64,000 nucleotides of DNA from Trichodelitschia bisporula. Lineage: Eukaryota; Ascomycota; Dothideomycetes; Phaeotrichales; Phaeotrichaceae. The position numbers and the translations under genes were made by a program. Location: positions 126,364 to 190,363 of the forward strand of contig ML996696.1 of the NCBI GenBank assembly GCA_010356995.1. Direction: 5' to 3'. Within the stretch, counting starts at the first letter, position 1, and each line of letters begins with the position of its first letter. The notes beneath the pieces were generated by a model. The model made no database searches and was not told where the DNA came from. It worked only from the letters and a program-made list of their open reading frames with translations. Below are positions 13,821 to 22,000 of this stretch, piece after piece.

Positions 13821-15944
13821 CTACCGCCGCCTACTAACCCCCTTCTTCCCATTCTCCTGCCCCAGCCCACCAACCTCCTCACTCAACTCCTGCCACAGCT
13901 GCCCGATTCCCACTCGCTTCGCAGGCAACATGGAATACTGCAGGCTGTACAGGTTCTTGCGGTGGATGGGCGGGACAAAGCGCCCGGTCGCCAGGCACAG
14001 CATCACCCCGGGCGACGCGTAGTGCTTGCGGATGCGGTTGCCCAGGCTGACGTAGCTGTTGAGCATCGCACTGAGGGGGAGGGGGACGGACTGGTGCGGG
14101 TTAGCTGGGTCTCGCTTCGGGGATGTGTTTACTGGGCTGGGGGACGGTACCTTCAAGTGTACAAGCGCAACATGCGCCTCCCCCTCCTGCACGGGCGGCA
14201 CACACAACTCAAACTTAATCCCCCCCGGCAACCTCCTACTATCCTTAAACCGCAGCATGAGCGCAAAAAGGGGAAAATGATTCAAACACGCAAGACACGT
14301 ATCCAGCCCCGCCTTGAGCATTATAATCGCCATCCGGGCCCCGGCGAACGTGATGTAGAACACGAAGACCGTGGGGAGGAGGAAGAAAAGGAGGGTGAAG
14401 AGGATGGTGCCGAGGAGGAGTTGGTCCAGGTCGTAGTCGCAGGAGTCGATTCGGCTGCGGAGGACGTTGTTTTTTTTGCCTCGGAAGAGGTGGAAGAGCG
14501 ACATGATGATGGTGAGTTGCCAGTGGAAGATCCGGGCGCTGGCGGCGTAGAAACTGTAGACGTGTAGCGTGAGGACGGAGACGAGGTCTGAGAAGAGCGA
14601 TATGGGCATGGTGGCGCCCGCGAAGGCGCTGAAGCCGATGAAGCGGACTACGGCGGGTAAGTGCGGGCGTAGCACTGCCATGCATCCGGCCCAGTAGTCG
14701 ATGACCCAGAGGAACAAGTCGCCTAGGAAAGTAGCGAGTTCGGTGTTGAGCTTGAGGCCTGCGGGCCAGTCCATCAACCACGCGATCATGCGCTGCAGCC
14801 CGTCGATCGTCCACGCATCGAGCACGCGGTCCAGTTGCAGCGCCACCAGGTCCGCGTTGTCGATTATGTAGCTGCCCAGCGCAATACCGATGATCACGTC
14901 GTTCGCGACCAGCCACAAGCTGTTGTAGAAGCGGATATACTCCGGGTGGCTGTGGGTTATACTCTGCCATGTCTGCTTCCGGCGGCGCAGGGTCAGGTAC
15001 TGCTTCGGCCAGTAGCAGAACTGTTGAAGCCGGATGTCGACCTGTTGCGCTGTGGCGCTGACGTCCTTGAGCGCCGCGTGCCCCGGAAACAAGCGCCAGT
15101 CCAGCACGTGCAAGACTAATTCGGCGGCCATGCGGTGCACGATGAGCCCGACGACGAAGAGCCGTGCGAAGACGGGGTATATCCATATTACGATCACGTG
15201 CCACAGGGCCAGTAACACGTAGTCCCACAGGTTAGTCGCGGACTTGACAACGCGTTCGCTGACGCTGAGGGCGCGCCGGGGCCGGGACCCTACGAGGCCT
15301 ACGTTGCGCTGGAGTAGAGCGTTGAGTTCGAAGGAACAGTTTATTTGCTCGATTATGATGGGCAGCAGCTTTTCCTTGGGCGTGTGCGCGTGCCAGACCA
15401 CGGTGTGCTGGCGCAGTTTCTCGACGAGCGCTTCTTTGCGCCGGCGTTCGCGCTCTTCGGCTGCTTCGACGCCGTCAAGGGGGGGGAACCCTTTTTCGCC
15501 GGCTTTGTCGCCTAGCGCGAGGGAGATGGGCGATAGGCTGAGGTACTGCATTTGCGTTGGGTGCGGGCGGTCGAACAGGATGATTTGGAACATGAGTGCC
15601 GTGGCGCCGGTGTAGAGGCGCGGGAAGCGCGTTTTGCGGTCTATGGACACGACGATGGATGCCGGGTTGAAGGCCGCGGGGGGGGAGCGCGGATTCACGG
15701 TCCCGAGGACCTGGAGCGCGCCCTTGCCGCAGCGTTCGAGGACGAGGGATATAGCATACGGACTATTGCGGTAGAGCGTCTCGAGGCGGAGCGCATTGTC
15801 CACGCTACGGAGCTCGACATCCTGCAGCACGGCCACGACCGTCATGTCCAGCTCTGAGTTGCGGAAGCCGACTAGCACGCCTGGCCGCGCTTCGGTGGGC
15901 GCGTCGGACGGCCAGAAGATGCGCATGAGGCCATTGTGGAGCAT
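13821..15944 (-). CDS. GPI1: GPI1/PIG-Q subunit of GPI-GlcNAc transferase
   Basis: Multi-pass ER membrane protein that stabilises the complex making GlcNAc-PI, the first step of GPI-anchor synthesis. Coding exons are 15944-14151 and 14090-13821. Between them lies a 60-nt intron (14091-14150, GTACCG donor, AGCTAAC branch point, CACCAG acceptor) that is in frame and lacks a stop, so it is easy to miss; its removal gives 687 residues. The soluble N-terminus carries LMRIFWPSDAP. Hydrophobic segments typical of Gpi1 follow (LLALWHVIVIWIYPVFARLF, FLGDLFLWVIDYWAGCMAVL, TILFTLLFFLLPTVFVFYIT). The conserved tail LATGRFVPPIHRKNLYSLQY is present. The start could be ATG 15944 or the in-frame ATG at 15926. 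The frame stays open upstream of the ATG into the neighbouring gene (see findings). Confidence 0.93.
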   Translation of the reverse strand: MLHNGLMRIFWPSDAPTEARPGVLVGFRNSELDMTVVAVLQDVELRSVDNALRLETLYRNSPYAISLVLERCGKGALQVLGTVNPRSPPAAFNPASIVVSIDRKTRFPRLYTGATALMFQIILFDRPHPTQMQYLSLSPISLALGDKAGEKGFPPLDGVEAAEERERRRKEALVEKLRQHTVVWHAHTPKEKLLPIIIEQINCSFELNALLQRNVGLVGSRPRRALSVSERVVKSATNLWDYVLLALWHVIVIWIYPVFARLFVVGLIVHRMAAELVLHVLDWRLFPGHAALKDVSATAQQVDIRLQQFCYWPKQYLTLRRRKQTWQSITHSHPEYIRFYNSLWLVANDVIIGIALGSYIIDNADLVALQLDRVLDAWTIDGLQRMIAWLMDWPAGLKLNTELATFLGDLFLWVIDYWAGCMAVLRPHLPAVVRFIGFSAFAGATMPISLFSDLVSVLTLHVYSFYAASARIFHWQLTIIMSLFHLFRGKKNNVLRSRIDSCDYDLDQLLLGTILFTLLFFLLPTVFVFYITFAGARMAIIMLKAGLDTCLACLNHFPLFALMLRFKDSRRLPGGIKFELCVPPVQEGEAHVALVHLKVPSPSPVNTSPKRDPANPHQSVPLPLSAMLNSYVSLGNRIRKHYASPGVMLCLATGRFVPPIHRKNLYSLQYSMLPAKRVGIGQLWQELSEEVGGLGQENGKKGVSRRR

Positions 15945-15954
15945 GGGTGCTATT

Positions 15955-16321
15955 TTAGAAGGAGCCGCGGCGCTTGAGCTGCTCGCGCGCGGAGATGCCG
16001 CCGCTGGGGGTGCGGGGGTGCTTTGCGGGGTTAGTTGGCGGAGGGCGACGGGGAGGAGACGTACTAGGTCTGTTTCGCGGACGGCGAGGCGCTCGATGGG
16101 GATTATGAATAGGAAGAAGAAGATGGAGAGGATGGTGAAGCCTTTGGCGGCGCGCGTCTGGGAGCGGTTAGGGGTGCGGCAGAAGACAGTGGCATACGCA
16201 CAACAACGCCGTGGTCCCAGGCAAAGATAGCCAGCTCATATAGTCGGGTGACAAGGTCCCACCTTGCGGTAATGTACCCAGCGACGAATATGCCCAAGGT
16301 TATACCGGAGAAGGGGTGCAT
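15955..16321 (-). CDS. Small membrane protein directly upstream of GPI1
   Basis: Three exons (16321-16202, 16157-16065, 16020-15955) join in phase 0 over two 44-nt introns: GTGCGT with CTAACC, and GTACGT with AACTAAC. They give 92 residues. The protein has a short N-terminal hydrophobic segment (SGITLGIFVAGYI), then YELAIFAWDHGVVTRAAKG, then a strong membrane helix (FTILSIFFFLFIIPIERLA), and a polar tail ending ISAREQLKRRGSF. Its TAA (15957-15955) lies 10 nt before the GPI1 ATG on the same strand. If the second intron is kept, the frame runs straight into GPI1. The YELAIFAWDHGVVTR core reads like a conserved fungal protein, but I cannot name the family with certainty. A role beside GPI1 at the ER is inferred from position only. 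Confidence 0.7.
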
Positions 16322-16908
16322 AGGCCTTGGGGGTTTGCGTCTCTGGCGGAGGAGGGCTATTGGCGGTACAGCGGTGAGCGGAGGGGGTTACGGAAGAAAG
16401 CTGTTGTTGTCATTGTCTACAGATGGTTCGGTGGAGGTGGGTGAGTGAAGGCGATCTGGGAGCGCAGATTGTCAATAGAGATGAAGCGGCGGTCCTGGTG
16501 TTGAGGGTCCGTGCGCTTCAACATGGCGCTTCAACGTATATTAAGCGCCTCTGCCGCCTGCCGCCAATGACAGCAGGCGCGAAACAACGGCGCCAAGCTA
16601 TATGAGGAAAGATGTATACTTGGCAACGACGCTGTGGCGCCGCACTGCGATCGGTCAAGTGGCGCATGGTGATGTGGCTGGTTCAGCTCACCTGCAGACT
16701 AGGAACATCGCGTGGTCCATGCCTTTGTACCTTTCCTTCTCTCATCTGCGACAAACCTCTCCACACTTTCATTCACCACTCTTTCTCTATTGTCACACCT
16801 CCACAGGTTCTCTTCGCCCTCCCCACCTCCTTCCTCCACTACTTCATCGCATTTCCACATTCCTTCGCAAACCGAGCTTCCGCTGCCCTCCGTGGCGCAT
16901 CATCAGCT
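16322..16908. promoter_or_regulatory. Divergent promoter region between the GPI1 unit and NUP42
   Basis: A 587-bp interval between divergent starts. The last 200 bp before NUP42 are pyrimidine-rich (CTCTCC, TTCCTCC), the usual look of a fungal 5' leader. No other gene is supported. Confidence 0.45.
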
Positions 16909-18769
16909 ATGGCTGTCTGTAAATTCTGGCAGCGCGGGAGCTGCAATCGCGGATGTGAGCACACTCTGATCTCTACAATACTGGGAGGCTGACCATATAG
17001 CCGAATGCAATTTCGCGCATCCTCCAAACGCGAACCCCAACGCCAACAACAATGCCAGCCGCCCCCAAAACCGCCCTCCGAGCCGTCCGCAAGGCGACCA
17101 CTATCGACAGGGTGACAACTATCGACCGAACAACTTTGGGCGCGGTCGTGACAACAGCCGAGGTCGTGACAACAACCGACCCCCTCCGGGCCCAGCCCAG
17201 CATCATGGCGGAGGCCGCGGCGACGGTGGTGGTGGCTACGACAACAGACGACCGTTCGACACCCGGCAGCAAGACAACCGACACAACGACAACCGGGGCT
17301 ATGACAACCGGAACGACACCCGCGGCCGCAGCCGTGGTCGCGACACACCCGTGAACAAAGAGAAGGAGCGCATCGAGCCCAACATGATCTACCAAGACCT
17401 AATGTGGGAACTCCCCGAATGGCCCCTCTCCTGCTACGCCCCAAAACCCGAAGTTCCCATCAACCTATTCTCCGGCCCAACCGAACAAAGCCCCGAAGAA
17501 GTGCGCATAGAATACTACCTCGCGCGCCTCCAAGGCGCAGAGCCACAAGCAGTTTGTCCCTCCACCGCCCCTCCCGTACGCACCCCGCTAATCCGCTCCT
17601 AGCAAGCAGCCGAAGCTGGCGCCGCTGCCGCCGCCTCGCAGCTGCGCTCCCAGGCCATGGGCGATCTTGCCGGTGCGGTTAAGCATGTCGTTGCTGCGTT
17701 CCGCGAGCATCCGAACCGGTTTGACGTCTGCCGGGAGAGTTCGACTGCGCCGCGCAACTCGACGCTTTTTGCGCGTGATAACCGGCCTCGTGTGCAGCGT
17801 CAAGCGCAGAACGCGCCTGTGCAATCGAATGGGTCGTTTGGACAGCCTAGCCAGCCTGCTTTTAGCCAGCCTAGTCAGCCGGCGTTTGGTCAACCGAGCC
17901 AGCCCTTTGCTCAGCCAACACCCACACCCTTTAGTCAACCGTCACAGCCCGCTTTTGGTCAACCGTCACAACCAGCCTTCGGTCAACCGTCTCAGCCTTC
18001 TAACCCCTTCAATCAACCCGCTCAGCCCGCCTTCAATCAACCCGCTCAACCCGCCTTCGGTCAACCGTCGCAACCCGCTTTTGGCCAACCGTCACAGCCA
18101 ACACAGTCATTCGGCCAGCCCTTCCAGCAACCACAGCAGCAAGCTTTTAGCCAACCCAATCCCTTCCAACAACCTGCCCAACCTGCCTTCGGTCAACCGT
18201 CGCAACCCGCGCAGTCATCCTTTGGCCAACCTTCTGCGCCCACGCCGTTCCAGCAACAACAACCAACCTTCGCCCAACCCCAGCCGCAAGGCATTCCCGC
18301 TACTCCCTTTGGGCGACCACCAGCAGAGAATGCGTTCGGAGGCGATGCCTCGAATTCCTTCGCAGGACAGAACGGTTTCACACAGCAGCAAGCTCCACAA
18401 CAAAACGGCTTCGACCAGCAAAACAGCTTCCAGTCACGGCCTCCGCAGAACGGATTCAGCAATCAAAACCCGTTCCAGACACAACCGCAGCAGAACGGAT
18501 TCAGTCAGCAGAATCCCTTCCAGTCCCAGCCTCAACAGCAGAGCTTTGGACAGAACGGCGCGGGCCGGCAGTTCGACCCTAACCCGATGTTGAACCCGAA
18601 TTTCGATCCCCCGGCTGAGATGTACGTCGATATGGCGCCCTACCACCAGGAGTACCAGAAGGTGGTGCAGACGAAGCGTTTTGTGAATGAGCATATGCCG
18701 GAGTTGGCGCCGCCATTGCGCTGGGTTTTTCCGGTTAGGAATGAGGGGTTGGAGGGGCCGCCGCAGTGA
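16909..18769 (+). CDS. NUP42: CCCH zinc-finger FG nucleoporin (NUP42/AMO1/NUPL2 type)
   Basis: Nuclear pore protein on the cytoplasmic side that works with Gle1 in mRNA export. Exons 16909-16954, 17001-17551 and 17603-18769 join in frame over introns of 46 and 51 nt, giving 587 residues. The first intron splits the zinc finger: C4-x7-C12-x5-C18-x3-H22 appears only after splicing, which supports the model. Then come an RGG/Asn/Asp-rich region, a conserved domain (MIYQDLMWELPEWPLSCYAP to about residue 250), and a long Gln/Pro-rich FG region with about 20 FGQP(S)QP-type repeats. The C-terminus (YQKVVQTKRFVNEHMPELAP) is the likely Gle1-binding end by analogy with yeast Nup42. The internal FGQPSQP repeats are nearly perfect at DNA level. 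Confidence 0.9.
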
Positions 18770-19019: not shown

Positions 19020-22000
19020 CGACGCACCCGACCGCGCAATGTCCTGGTGTTGTTCCAGGCCTGGCCGCACACCCATCGGTCCCACTCCACACCCACCCGG
19101 CCCGAGACATCTCGTTCACGCTCTTCAGGCCTAGCTTCGTGCGCGGCGCATCCGCTGATATATCCGTATCCATCTGCCGTACATCCCTTACCCAAAGTCC
19201 AGTAATTCTTGACACGGCACACCACACGGCGCAATAAGCTGCGTCGCTGTTTGGCCCGGCCCGGGATATGTGTCCTTTGCGTCGGACGCCCGGCTCCGTG
19301 CCAGCGGAGAGGCGCACGCACCACAGCACAATATGTCCTCCCCCTCGGTGACCCGGCTGCATCCTCGAGCTCGATACACCGCCCGCCCGGCCCGGAACAT
19401 GCATCCTTTGGGTTGGCTGCCCGACTTCGTGCCAGCGGAGCGGCGCACGCGCCACCGCGCAATTCCTCGTCGTCCTCGGGGACCCGGCTGCAGCTCTCAA
19501 CTTCAAGCCACCCCGCCCGGGCCAGGACATGCACTCCTAGCCTCCCGGGTCCAGGATATGCAATGACATTCTGCGGTGCCCGACTTCGTGCTGGCGGTGT
19601 AGCTGTGCAGACCACACACCACCGCGCAATTTAGCCTTTAGGTCGGACATCCGGCTGTATGCCTCGAGCTCAATAAAGCCCCGCCCGACCCGAGCCATTT
19701 ATCATGACGGTGGTGTGCCTAACAACGTGCCAGCGCAGACACGCACACCCCACCGCGCAATTCGTCGTCGTCCTCCCGGGCCCGGCTGCGCCCCTCACCC
19801 GGATCGAACGCCCGCCCGGCCCGGGCATGTACTCCTAGCCTCCCGGTCCAGGAAATGCAATGACAGTCTGCGGTGCCCGACTTCGTGCCGGCGGTGTAGG
19901 TGTGCACACCACACACCACCGCGCAATCGTTCTTCGTCGTCGGTGTCCCGGCTGTACCCCTCACCCGGACTGGGCACCCGCTCGGCCCGAGCTATTTGTC
20001 ATGACAGTGGTGTGCCTAACAACGTGCCAGCGCAGACGCGCACACCCCACCGCGCAATTCCTCATCGTCCTCGCGGACCCGGCTTATCCCTCACTGGGAT
20101 CGAACACCCGCCCGGCCCGAGCCATGCGCCTTCACGGTGGCGTGCCTAACTGCATTTCGGCTCAGACGCGCACACCCCACCCAATGACGCTGGATGAACG
20201 GTGACCCGGCTAACGAGCCGTGCTCCTTTGACCTTAAGTCCAATACCTGCCCGGCCCGGGATATGTGTCCTTTGCGTCGGACGCCCGCCTTCGCCCCGGT
20301 GGAGCGGAAGTGCGCGCACAACGCACCACCGCGCAATCGTTCTTCGTCGTCGGTGTCCCGGCCGCACTCCTCACTCGGATCGAATACCAGCCCGGCCCGA
20401 GCAATGTTGAGTTTGCTTGGTGCGCCTAACTGCGTGCCAGCGCGGACGCGCACACTGCACCCAATGACGCTGGATGGACGGTGACCCGACCACCGGGCCG
20501 TGTTCCTTCAACCTGAAGTTCCACACCTGCTCAGCTCGCGATATGGAGCTTCAGCGTGACGTGCTTAGCTTCTTTCCGGCGGCGTAGATGCGCACAACCA
20601 CGCACCGCCGCGCAATTATCTTCATCGTCATCGGACCAGCCGTGTCCCTCGTATCAAGCACCAGCCCCAGCCCGAGCCATTCTTTCTCAGGGTGGGACGC
20701 CTGTCTTCGTGTCAGCGCGGACGCGCACACCCCACCCAATCACGCTTGAGTGTTCGTGGCCCGACCACCGGGCCGTATTTCTTCAACTTTGCGTTCAACA
20801 CCTCGTCGGCTGGGGACATGGAGCTTCAGCGCGACGTGCCCGGATTCATACAGTCGGTGTAGATGCGCACGCCACGCACCGCCGCGTAATGATTCCTCAT
20901 CGTCGGTGACCCGGCCGCATCCCCTCTGGCCCCGGCACACCACACGGCGCAATACACTCTCCTCCTCAGGGACCCGGCTGCATTCCTTGACTCCGATGCA
21001 CGCCCCCGCCCGGATGAAGACATACCCCCTCAGCGGAACGGACCCGGCTTCGTGCCAGCGCAGATGCACACACCCACCCAATGTTCCTGGAGAGTCTGTG
21101 GCCCGGCCACCGGGCCGTATTCCTTCTACCTCAAGTCTAACACCTCGTCGGCCGGGGACATGGAGCTTCAGAGTGACGTGCCCGGATTCGTACGGGCGTA
21201 GAGGCGCACACCAGGTAACGCCATGCAATCATTGCTCGTCGTCGCCGGCAGAGACAAATGATCCTCGGCAAGATTCCAAATTGAGGCTTAGTAGTTCGAT
21301 GGCTCTCTCTTCTAACCCGGCTGCATCGTCTCTTGACCCGGCACACCACACGGCGCAATACTAGCTCCTGCAGCTGGATCCGGCTGAATTCCTTGCCTCC
21401 GATGCACGCCCCCGCCCGGACGAAGACATAGTTCTGGGGCGTCACGGGCCCGGCTTCGTACCAGCGGCGTGAATGTGCGCGCACCACACCGCGCAATTCA
21501 TCTTGAGCTATGTTGACCCGGCAGCGTCCCTCGAGCTCAATATACCCCCACCTGGCCCGAGCCATGACCTGGTTGGTTGGTATGCCTGCCTTCGTCCCGG
21601 CGGTGCATCCGTGCCCCCAGCACACCCCACGGCGCAATGTTTAGATCCCGGTATGCCCCGGGCCGCACCGTGAACTCGAAGCCAAGACCCGCCCGGCCCG
21701 GGACATGCATGACCGCTTCCCGGCGCCCGACTTCGTCCCGGCAGCTTAGGTGCGCGCACCACACCCCACCGCGCAATACGTCGTCATCATCCTCGTCCCG
21801 GATCTGGGCGCGTCCTTCGACTTCGATCCACCGCCCGTCCAGCCCGGGTCATAGCTCTTGACGTAGGTACGCCTGAGTACTAGTAGCGTAGACGTGCACA
21901 CCCCCCACCCCAGAAATAGGTGCATGTGGGAAGGGGCCCGGCAAAGAAGTAGTCCAGACCGGACTTGGATTGGAAGACCCGGGTGTTGGCCCACCACACC

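Follow-up and report, generated by a model that had tools for sequence, protein, structure and literature searches.

How is the GPI1 gene of the ascomycete Trichodelitschia bisporula translated, given that a small membrane protein gene on the same strand ends 10 nt ahead of its start codon? The window analysed here is a 64,000-nt stretch of contig ML996696.1, taken from the 25.65-Mb assembly (30 contigs) that was used as the genome for searches. For this arrangement, the original prediction offered two readings, i.e. a bicistronic transcript or a splicing switch that fuses both products. The former gains indirect support from the exclusion of in-frame methionine codons from the small gene, while the latter did not hold up.

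Architecture of the locus

The gene pair comprises the following features (positions are those of the window).

13821-15944, minus strand: ORF2, GPI1 / PIG-Q, ATG at 15944-15942 (Pfam PF05024, E 4.4e-112)
14150-14091, minus strand: late GPI1 intron, 60 nt, near the 3' end, spliced out in the deposited model P0121 (comparison with P0121)
15945-15954, minus strand: spacer, 10 nt, from the ORF1 TAA to the GPI1 ATG (sequence)
15955-16321, minus strand: ORF1 gene, 92-aa two-helix membrane protein, three exons, TAA at 15957-15955 (sequence, 1085 relatives, predicted helices)
15958-16020, minus strand: ORF1 exon 3, conserved tail HPR...GISAREQLKRRGSF (sequence, relatives)
16021-16064, minus strand: ORF1 intron 2, 44 nt, GTACGT...CTAAC...AAAG, retained in P0121 (sequence, P0121)
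16065-16157, minus strand: ORF1 exon 2, second membrane helix (sequence, predicted helices)
16158-16201, minus strand: ORF1 intron 1, 44 nt, GTGCGT...CTAAC...CAG (sequence; spliced joint conserved in relatives)
16202-16321, minus strand: ORF1 exon 1, Met1 to Val40, ATG at 16321 in the start context GGCCT-ATG with C at -3 (sequence)
16322-16908, no strand assigned: probable 5' leader and promoter of ORF1-GPI1, common to a divergent plus strand frame (putative role; sequence)

As originally predicted, the small gene ends 10 nt ahead of the GPI1 ATG on the same strand and, upon removal of 16021-16064, terminates with a TAA to give a 92-aa product. The 111-residue in-frame extension of GPI1 that arises when intron 2 is kept was likewise recovered; it does contribute membrane-spanning sequence, but both helices are present rather than the one that had been described. 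The start codons of ORF1 and GPI1 are 377 bp apart, and the ORF1 gene fills nearly all of this distance. Judging from the 1085 relatives, ORF1 and its introns are beyond chance. When the ORF1 protein was searched against the genome, its own three exons were the sole matches. A scan for promoters and terminators of bacterial type, which is ill-suited to fungal DNA, found no element.

The small protein and its conserved position

A protein search retrieved 1085 relatives of the ORF1 protein. Among the matches listed are 120 stand-alone relatives, 106 of which have a length of 92 aa, 109 of which end in GSF and all of which carry the tail RRGS[F/L/I]. In an alignment of 20 rows, 40 of the 92 columns are invariant. 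AlphaFold2 modelling of the lone protein, for which 54 of 120 relatives were aligned, predicts long helices at residues 3-36 and 39-71 as well as a short helix in the tail (mean pLDDT 87.3).

A Pfam scan of the 54 relatives yielded no convincing family (best E 0.025). Sequence searches among solved structures yielded no relative of the ORF1 protein or of GPI1, and a profile of the fused form produced two chance-level matches only (E 0.97 and 0.98). Several database entries name the small protein phosphatidylinositol glycan class Q, a label that appears to have leaked from fused models. Known small components of the pathway were considered as well. PIG-Y/Eri1 was rejected, as neither the ORF1 protein (at E up to 10) nor the 54 relatives (at E up to 1) matched PF15159; a profile search of the genome places a PF15159 (PIG-Y) gene on another contig, C22 (E 1.3e-23). 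DPM2 was rejected for lack of a PF07297 match in the same scans and in view of a separate DPM2 gene on C11, and the genes for PIG-P, GPI2 and PIG-H likewise lie at other sites of the genome. In viral and genome contig collections, no relatives in DNA of related fungi were confirmed. The titles and abstract openings of openly licensed papers did not describe a small gene preceding GPI1 in fungi; in PMC6762210, as far as its text was available, the term "bicistronic" refers to an expression vector.

Using the N-terminal 72 residues of the full-length query, 210 GPI1-sized clusters were found in which the small protein forms the annotated N-terminus. Among the 120 inspected, 119 contain the Gpi1 domain, the exception being P0202. 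These fusion models show that, in many fungi, ORF1 and GPI1 are neighbours with the same order and orientation. The eight examples that were looked up belong to eight classes of the Pezizomycotina, namely Dothideomycetes, Eurotiomycetes, Sordariomycetes, Leotiomycetes, Lecanoromycetes, Lichinomycetes, Xylonomycetes and Coniocybomycetes.

Exclusion of methionine from the small protein

In the 120 stand-alone relatives among the matches listed, internal methionine occurs twice in 10,982 residues, the carriers being P0025 and P0090 (Golovinomyces magnicellulatus). Of the 8,400 residues in the N-terminal portions of the 120 inspected fusions, a single one is Met, located in P0212, which lacks the true N-terminus, as compared to 2.28% Met in the GPI1 parts. 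In 118 fusion models (120 minus P0202 and P0212), the small protein has 18 variable hydrophobic columns, none of which contains Met; of 133 such columns in GPI1 of the same proteins, 73 do. Based on a tree built from the GPI1 columns, 333 exchanges among F, I, L and V were counted in the small protein alongside 0 changes to Met, versus 1623 and 243, respectively, in GPI1 (Fisher p 5e-19; here and below, p values are nominal, with inferred changes treated as independent). A comparison of Met changes in the membrane-like columns of both proteins gave p 6e-13. Among 24 representatives with less than 70% identity, Met columns amount to 0 of 17 in the small protein versus 37 of 85 in GPI1 (p 2e-4). 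The N-terminal region is included in this pattern, with 0 Met changes beside 64 exchanges in residues 2-30 (p 3e-4 versus GPI1).

DPM2, a membrane protein of similar length, served as a control. Its 120 relatives display 16 changes from F, I, L or V to Met beside 193 exchanges, whereas the stand-alone small proteins show 0 beside 377 (p 5e-8). Counting changes from any residue to Met, the values are 17 of 683 for DPM2 versus 2 of 942 for the small protein (p 2e-5).

How ribosomes may reach GPI1

The near-absence of Met resembles the AUG depletion of bicistrons that are read by leaky scanning, from which we infer a conserved bicistronic mRNA. On balance, we lean towards a single such message for ORF1 and GPI1 in which GPI1 is reached by leaky scanning; the likelihoods attached to this explanation and to its rivals are not mutually exclusive. 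A single capped mRNA would contain two complete frames, i.e. ORF1 with both introns removed and GPI1 10 nt past its stop. Part of the scanning ribosomes would initiate at the weak-context ORF1 AUG to form the small protein, while the remaining ones would leak past this codon, encounter few further AUGs and initiate at GPI1. As an AUG in ORF1 would intercept ribosomes bound for GPI1, leaky scanning predicts the exclusion of Met. Conceivably, selection for a readable ORF2 has purged in-frame AUG (Met) codons from ORF1. Retention of intron 2 would then be unproductive or an artefact of the gene model. Leaky scanning itself is extensively evidenced in Cryptococcus and Neurospora (PMC7049704).

Some observations count against this scenario. 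In the one genome considered here, depletion of out-of-frame AUGs is not seen (1 in ORF1 versus 0.42 expected from GPI1 codon usage), and the GPI1 ATG has C at -3, the same as ORF1, and thus a context that is not visibly stronger. In addition, P0025 and P0090, i.e. 2 of the 120 stand-alone relatives listed, do have an internal Met. With its position 3' of the ORF1 stop, the late GPI1 intron could make a bicistronic mRNA a target of decay.

The closest parallel is provided by green-algal bicistrons, in which leaky scanning goes along with a weak ORF1 start and a scarcity of AUGs ahead of ORF2; in a reporter with a 14-nt spacer, restoring an AUG in ORF1 sharply lowered the ORF2 output (PMC11892635). 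The present locus shares with these two same-strand frames, a short spacer, an AUG-poor ORF1 and, in one genome, a weak ORF1 context. Unlike the algal loci, it is fungal and known here from sequence alone, and in the one genome neither a stronger ORF2 context nor a depletion of out-of-frame AUGs is apparent.

The original prediction also drew a comparison with the mammalian PREY/PIGY message, a previously characterised bicistron (PYURF-PIGY; PMC13303939). This analogy stands for the layout, as a small frame lies upstream of a gene for a GPI-GlcNAc transferase subunit, but not for the identity of the components: the subunit in question is GPI1/PIG-Q, the upstream protein matches no known family and no PIG-Y model, and the PIG-Y gene resides on another contig.

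Alternatively, both genes might have separate transcripts, with GPI1 transcription beginning within ORF1 or ahead of it and tight packing instead of a common mRNA, which we regard as rather unlikely. Polycistronic transcripts of Agaricomycetes, the conservation of which declines outside the class, combine neighbouring fungal genes in one transcript, as would be the case here, but stem from basidiomycetes; in the available text of the same study, a long-read survey of the ascomycete Neurospora crassa gave 0 polycistronic transcripts (PMC4503453), which favours separate messages. A small ORF that had been merged into the GPI1 model might, however, escape the count in such a survey. If GPI1 transcripts began within ORF1, AUGs located 3' of that site would likewise be selected against. 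Yet the exclusion of Met extends to the N-terminal part of the small protein, the start codons are separated by a mere 377 bp that consist almost entirely of the ORF1 gene, and order and orientation are kept in the examples from eight classes.

It is less likely still that ribosomes on a bicistronic mRNA terminate at the end of ORF1 and reinitiate 10 nt further on to translate GPI1. The short spacer would suit such a mechanism. IGG6, a 9-bp element optimised from an intergenic sequence of Glarea lozoyensis, allows a second frame to be translated in yeasts as well as in Aspergillus nidulans, for which its authors propose a reinitiation model (PMC10352335). In common with IGG1/IGG6, the locus of T. 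bisporula has a filamentous ascomycete origin, a short intergenic sequence and a downstream frame that would reside on the same mRNA. The likeness considered here is one of layout, and in contrast to leaky scanning the mechanism proposed there is reinitiation, with no mention of AUG depletion in the available text of that study (PMC10352335). Under reinitiation, AUGs would be expected to disappear chiefly close to the end of ORF1, whereas Met is missing along the entire ORF. As the depletion includes residues 2-30, scanning through the whole ORF fits better than reinitiation at its end. Moreover, the fusion linkers, compared by eye, suggest that the spacer varies in length among relatives.

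We consider it similarly improbable that the GPI1 neighbour is irrelevant and that Met is kept out either for reasons of protein chemistry or since internal starts would generate harmful truncated forms of the small protein. Such harm would indeed entail the same avoidance of Met, and the cross-species comparison is confined to in-frame AUGs, with an out-of-frame AUG present in the one genome. However, Met is tolerated by GPI1 as well as by DPM2, which is of similar length and has two hydrophobic stretches. In addition, harm from truncated forms would itself require a leaky ORF1 start, and the kept adjacency would be left unexplained.

Retention of intron 2 and the fusion models

The fusion that had been proposed is already deposited as a gene model. 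P0121 from T. bisporula (798 aa) is identical over its full length to the form with retained intron 2, assuming removal of intron 1 and of the 60-nt late GPI1 intron. The open path is unremarkable, however. In 200,000 trials at native lengths, in which the synonymous codons of exon 3 were resampled according to GPI1 codon usage and the intron and spacer were shuffled, the intron 2 path was open in 39%; with a one-in-three phase, this translates into a chance of ~13% for a junction that is both open and in phase. The open frame across the junction is therefore not beyond chance.

The conserved C-terminus of the small protein is kept in none of the 119 inspected fusions with a Gpi1 domain versus all 120 stand-alone relatives listed. 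The own-frame motif SAREQL is absent from 100 and kept in 20 of the 120 inspected fusions, with the full tail found only in P0202, which lacks Gpi1. A permissive test for exon 3 read in another frame (an 11-residue stretch) was compatible with 11 of 120 models including P0121, while a clear read-through of intron 2 and exon 3 to the GPI1 ATG was recognized by eye in P0121 only. Between species, the linkers of these protein models vary widely. At the intron 2 site, P0102, P0104 and P0118 contain in-frame insertions after which the normal tail resumes; in-frame insertions are also present in the Hortaea models P0136-P0138, in which the end is lost. These insertions point to intron lengths of 3n at this site in some relatives, and the length modulo three is seemingly not kept. 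In other Pezizomycotina, where the original prediction had suggested checking for conservation of both the gene pair and the open frame across the junction, the pair is kept in many species, but the same open frame was not encountered in the linkers and insertions of the 120 protein models.

When the deposited fusion is modelled with AlphaFold2 (on an alignment of 78 of the 120 fusion proteins; inter-domain error not part of the output), the linker is predicted to be disordered (pLDDT about 40), and the ten-residue block means of the small part range from 54 to 85 (residues 1-70) versus 87 to 97 for the protein alone. The model gives no sign of the small part docking on Gpi1.

Hence, the fusion models look like artefacts of tight gene packing. 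A regulated fusion, in which retention of intron 2 joins the helices of the small protein to GPI1, is very improbable: although the frame is open, P0121 has exactly this form and some fusion model exists in 210 clusters (120 inspected), the junction may well have arisen by chance, the conserved tail is lost, linkers differ, that of P0121 is predicted to be disordered, and some relatives seem to carry 3n introns. In some 210 clusters (120 inspected), the annotated N-terminus of GPI1 is probably wrong.

Possible role in GPI synthesis

That the small protein participates in GPI synthesis, as an extra subunit beside Gpi1 at a presumed ER location, is a guess suggested by the kept adjacency, and proteins encoded by one bicistronic message do not necessarily act in the same pathway. 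Tentatively, the first enzyme of GPI anchor formation in many filamentous ascomycetes may contain an undescribed 92-residue membrane hairpin subunit that is co-produced with Gpi1 by leaky scanning, with Met kept out over very long times to maintain the readability of GPI1. If this is right, the locus would represent a deeply conserved ascomycete bicistron in which the mode of translation has left its mark on the protein sequence. A conserved protein family that is absent from Pfam and often labelled PIG-Q or merged into GPI1 would also receive a name. Similar loci could be sought by screening for conserved upstream proteins that are nearly devoid of methionine. Antifungal research targets GPI synthesis (PMC7341893), and a possible link of the small protein to this pathway would matter in this regard.

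Flanking sequences

PF05254 also occurs in 8 of the 120 inspected fusion models (P0147, P0173, P0202, P0206, P0230, P0231, P0233 and P0235), and in those of the eight that were read it lies upstream of the small protein. This suggests that a third same-strand gene may directly precede ORF1 in some fungi. We take PF05254 to be the Mdm35/TRIAP1 family. In T. bisporula, a divergent plus strand frame (16909-18769, ATG at 16909) begins with MAVCKFWQRGSCNRGCEH, which is zinc-finger-like, and contains many FG-type repeats; it presumably resembles a Nup42-type nucleoporin. Within this frame, a short intron may end at the stop at 17600-17602. Further along, positions 19250-20545 of the window harbor degenerate direct repeats of five families, with units of 59-167 nt, copies that are ~60-93% alike and a spacing of 131-410 nt.
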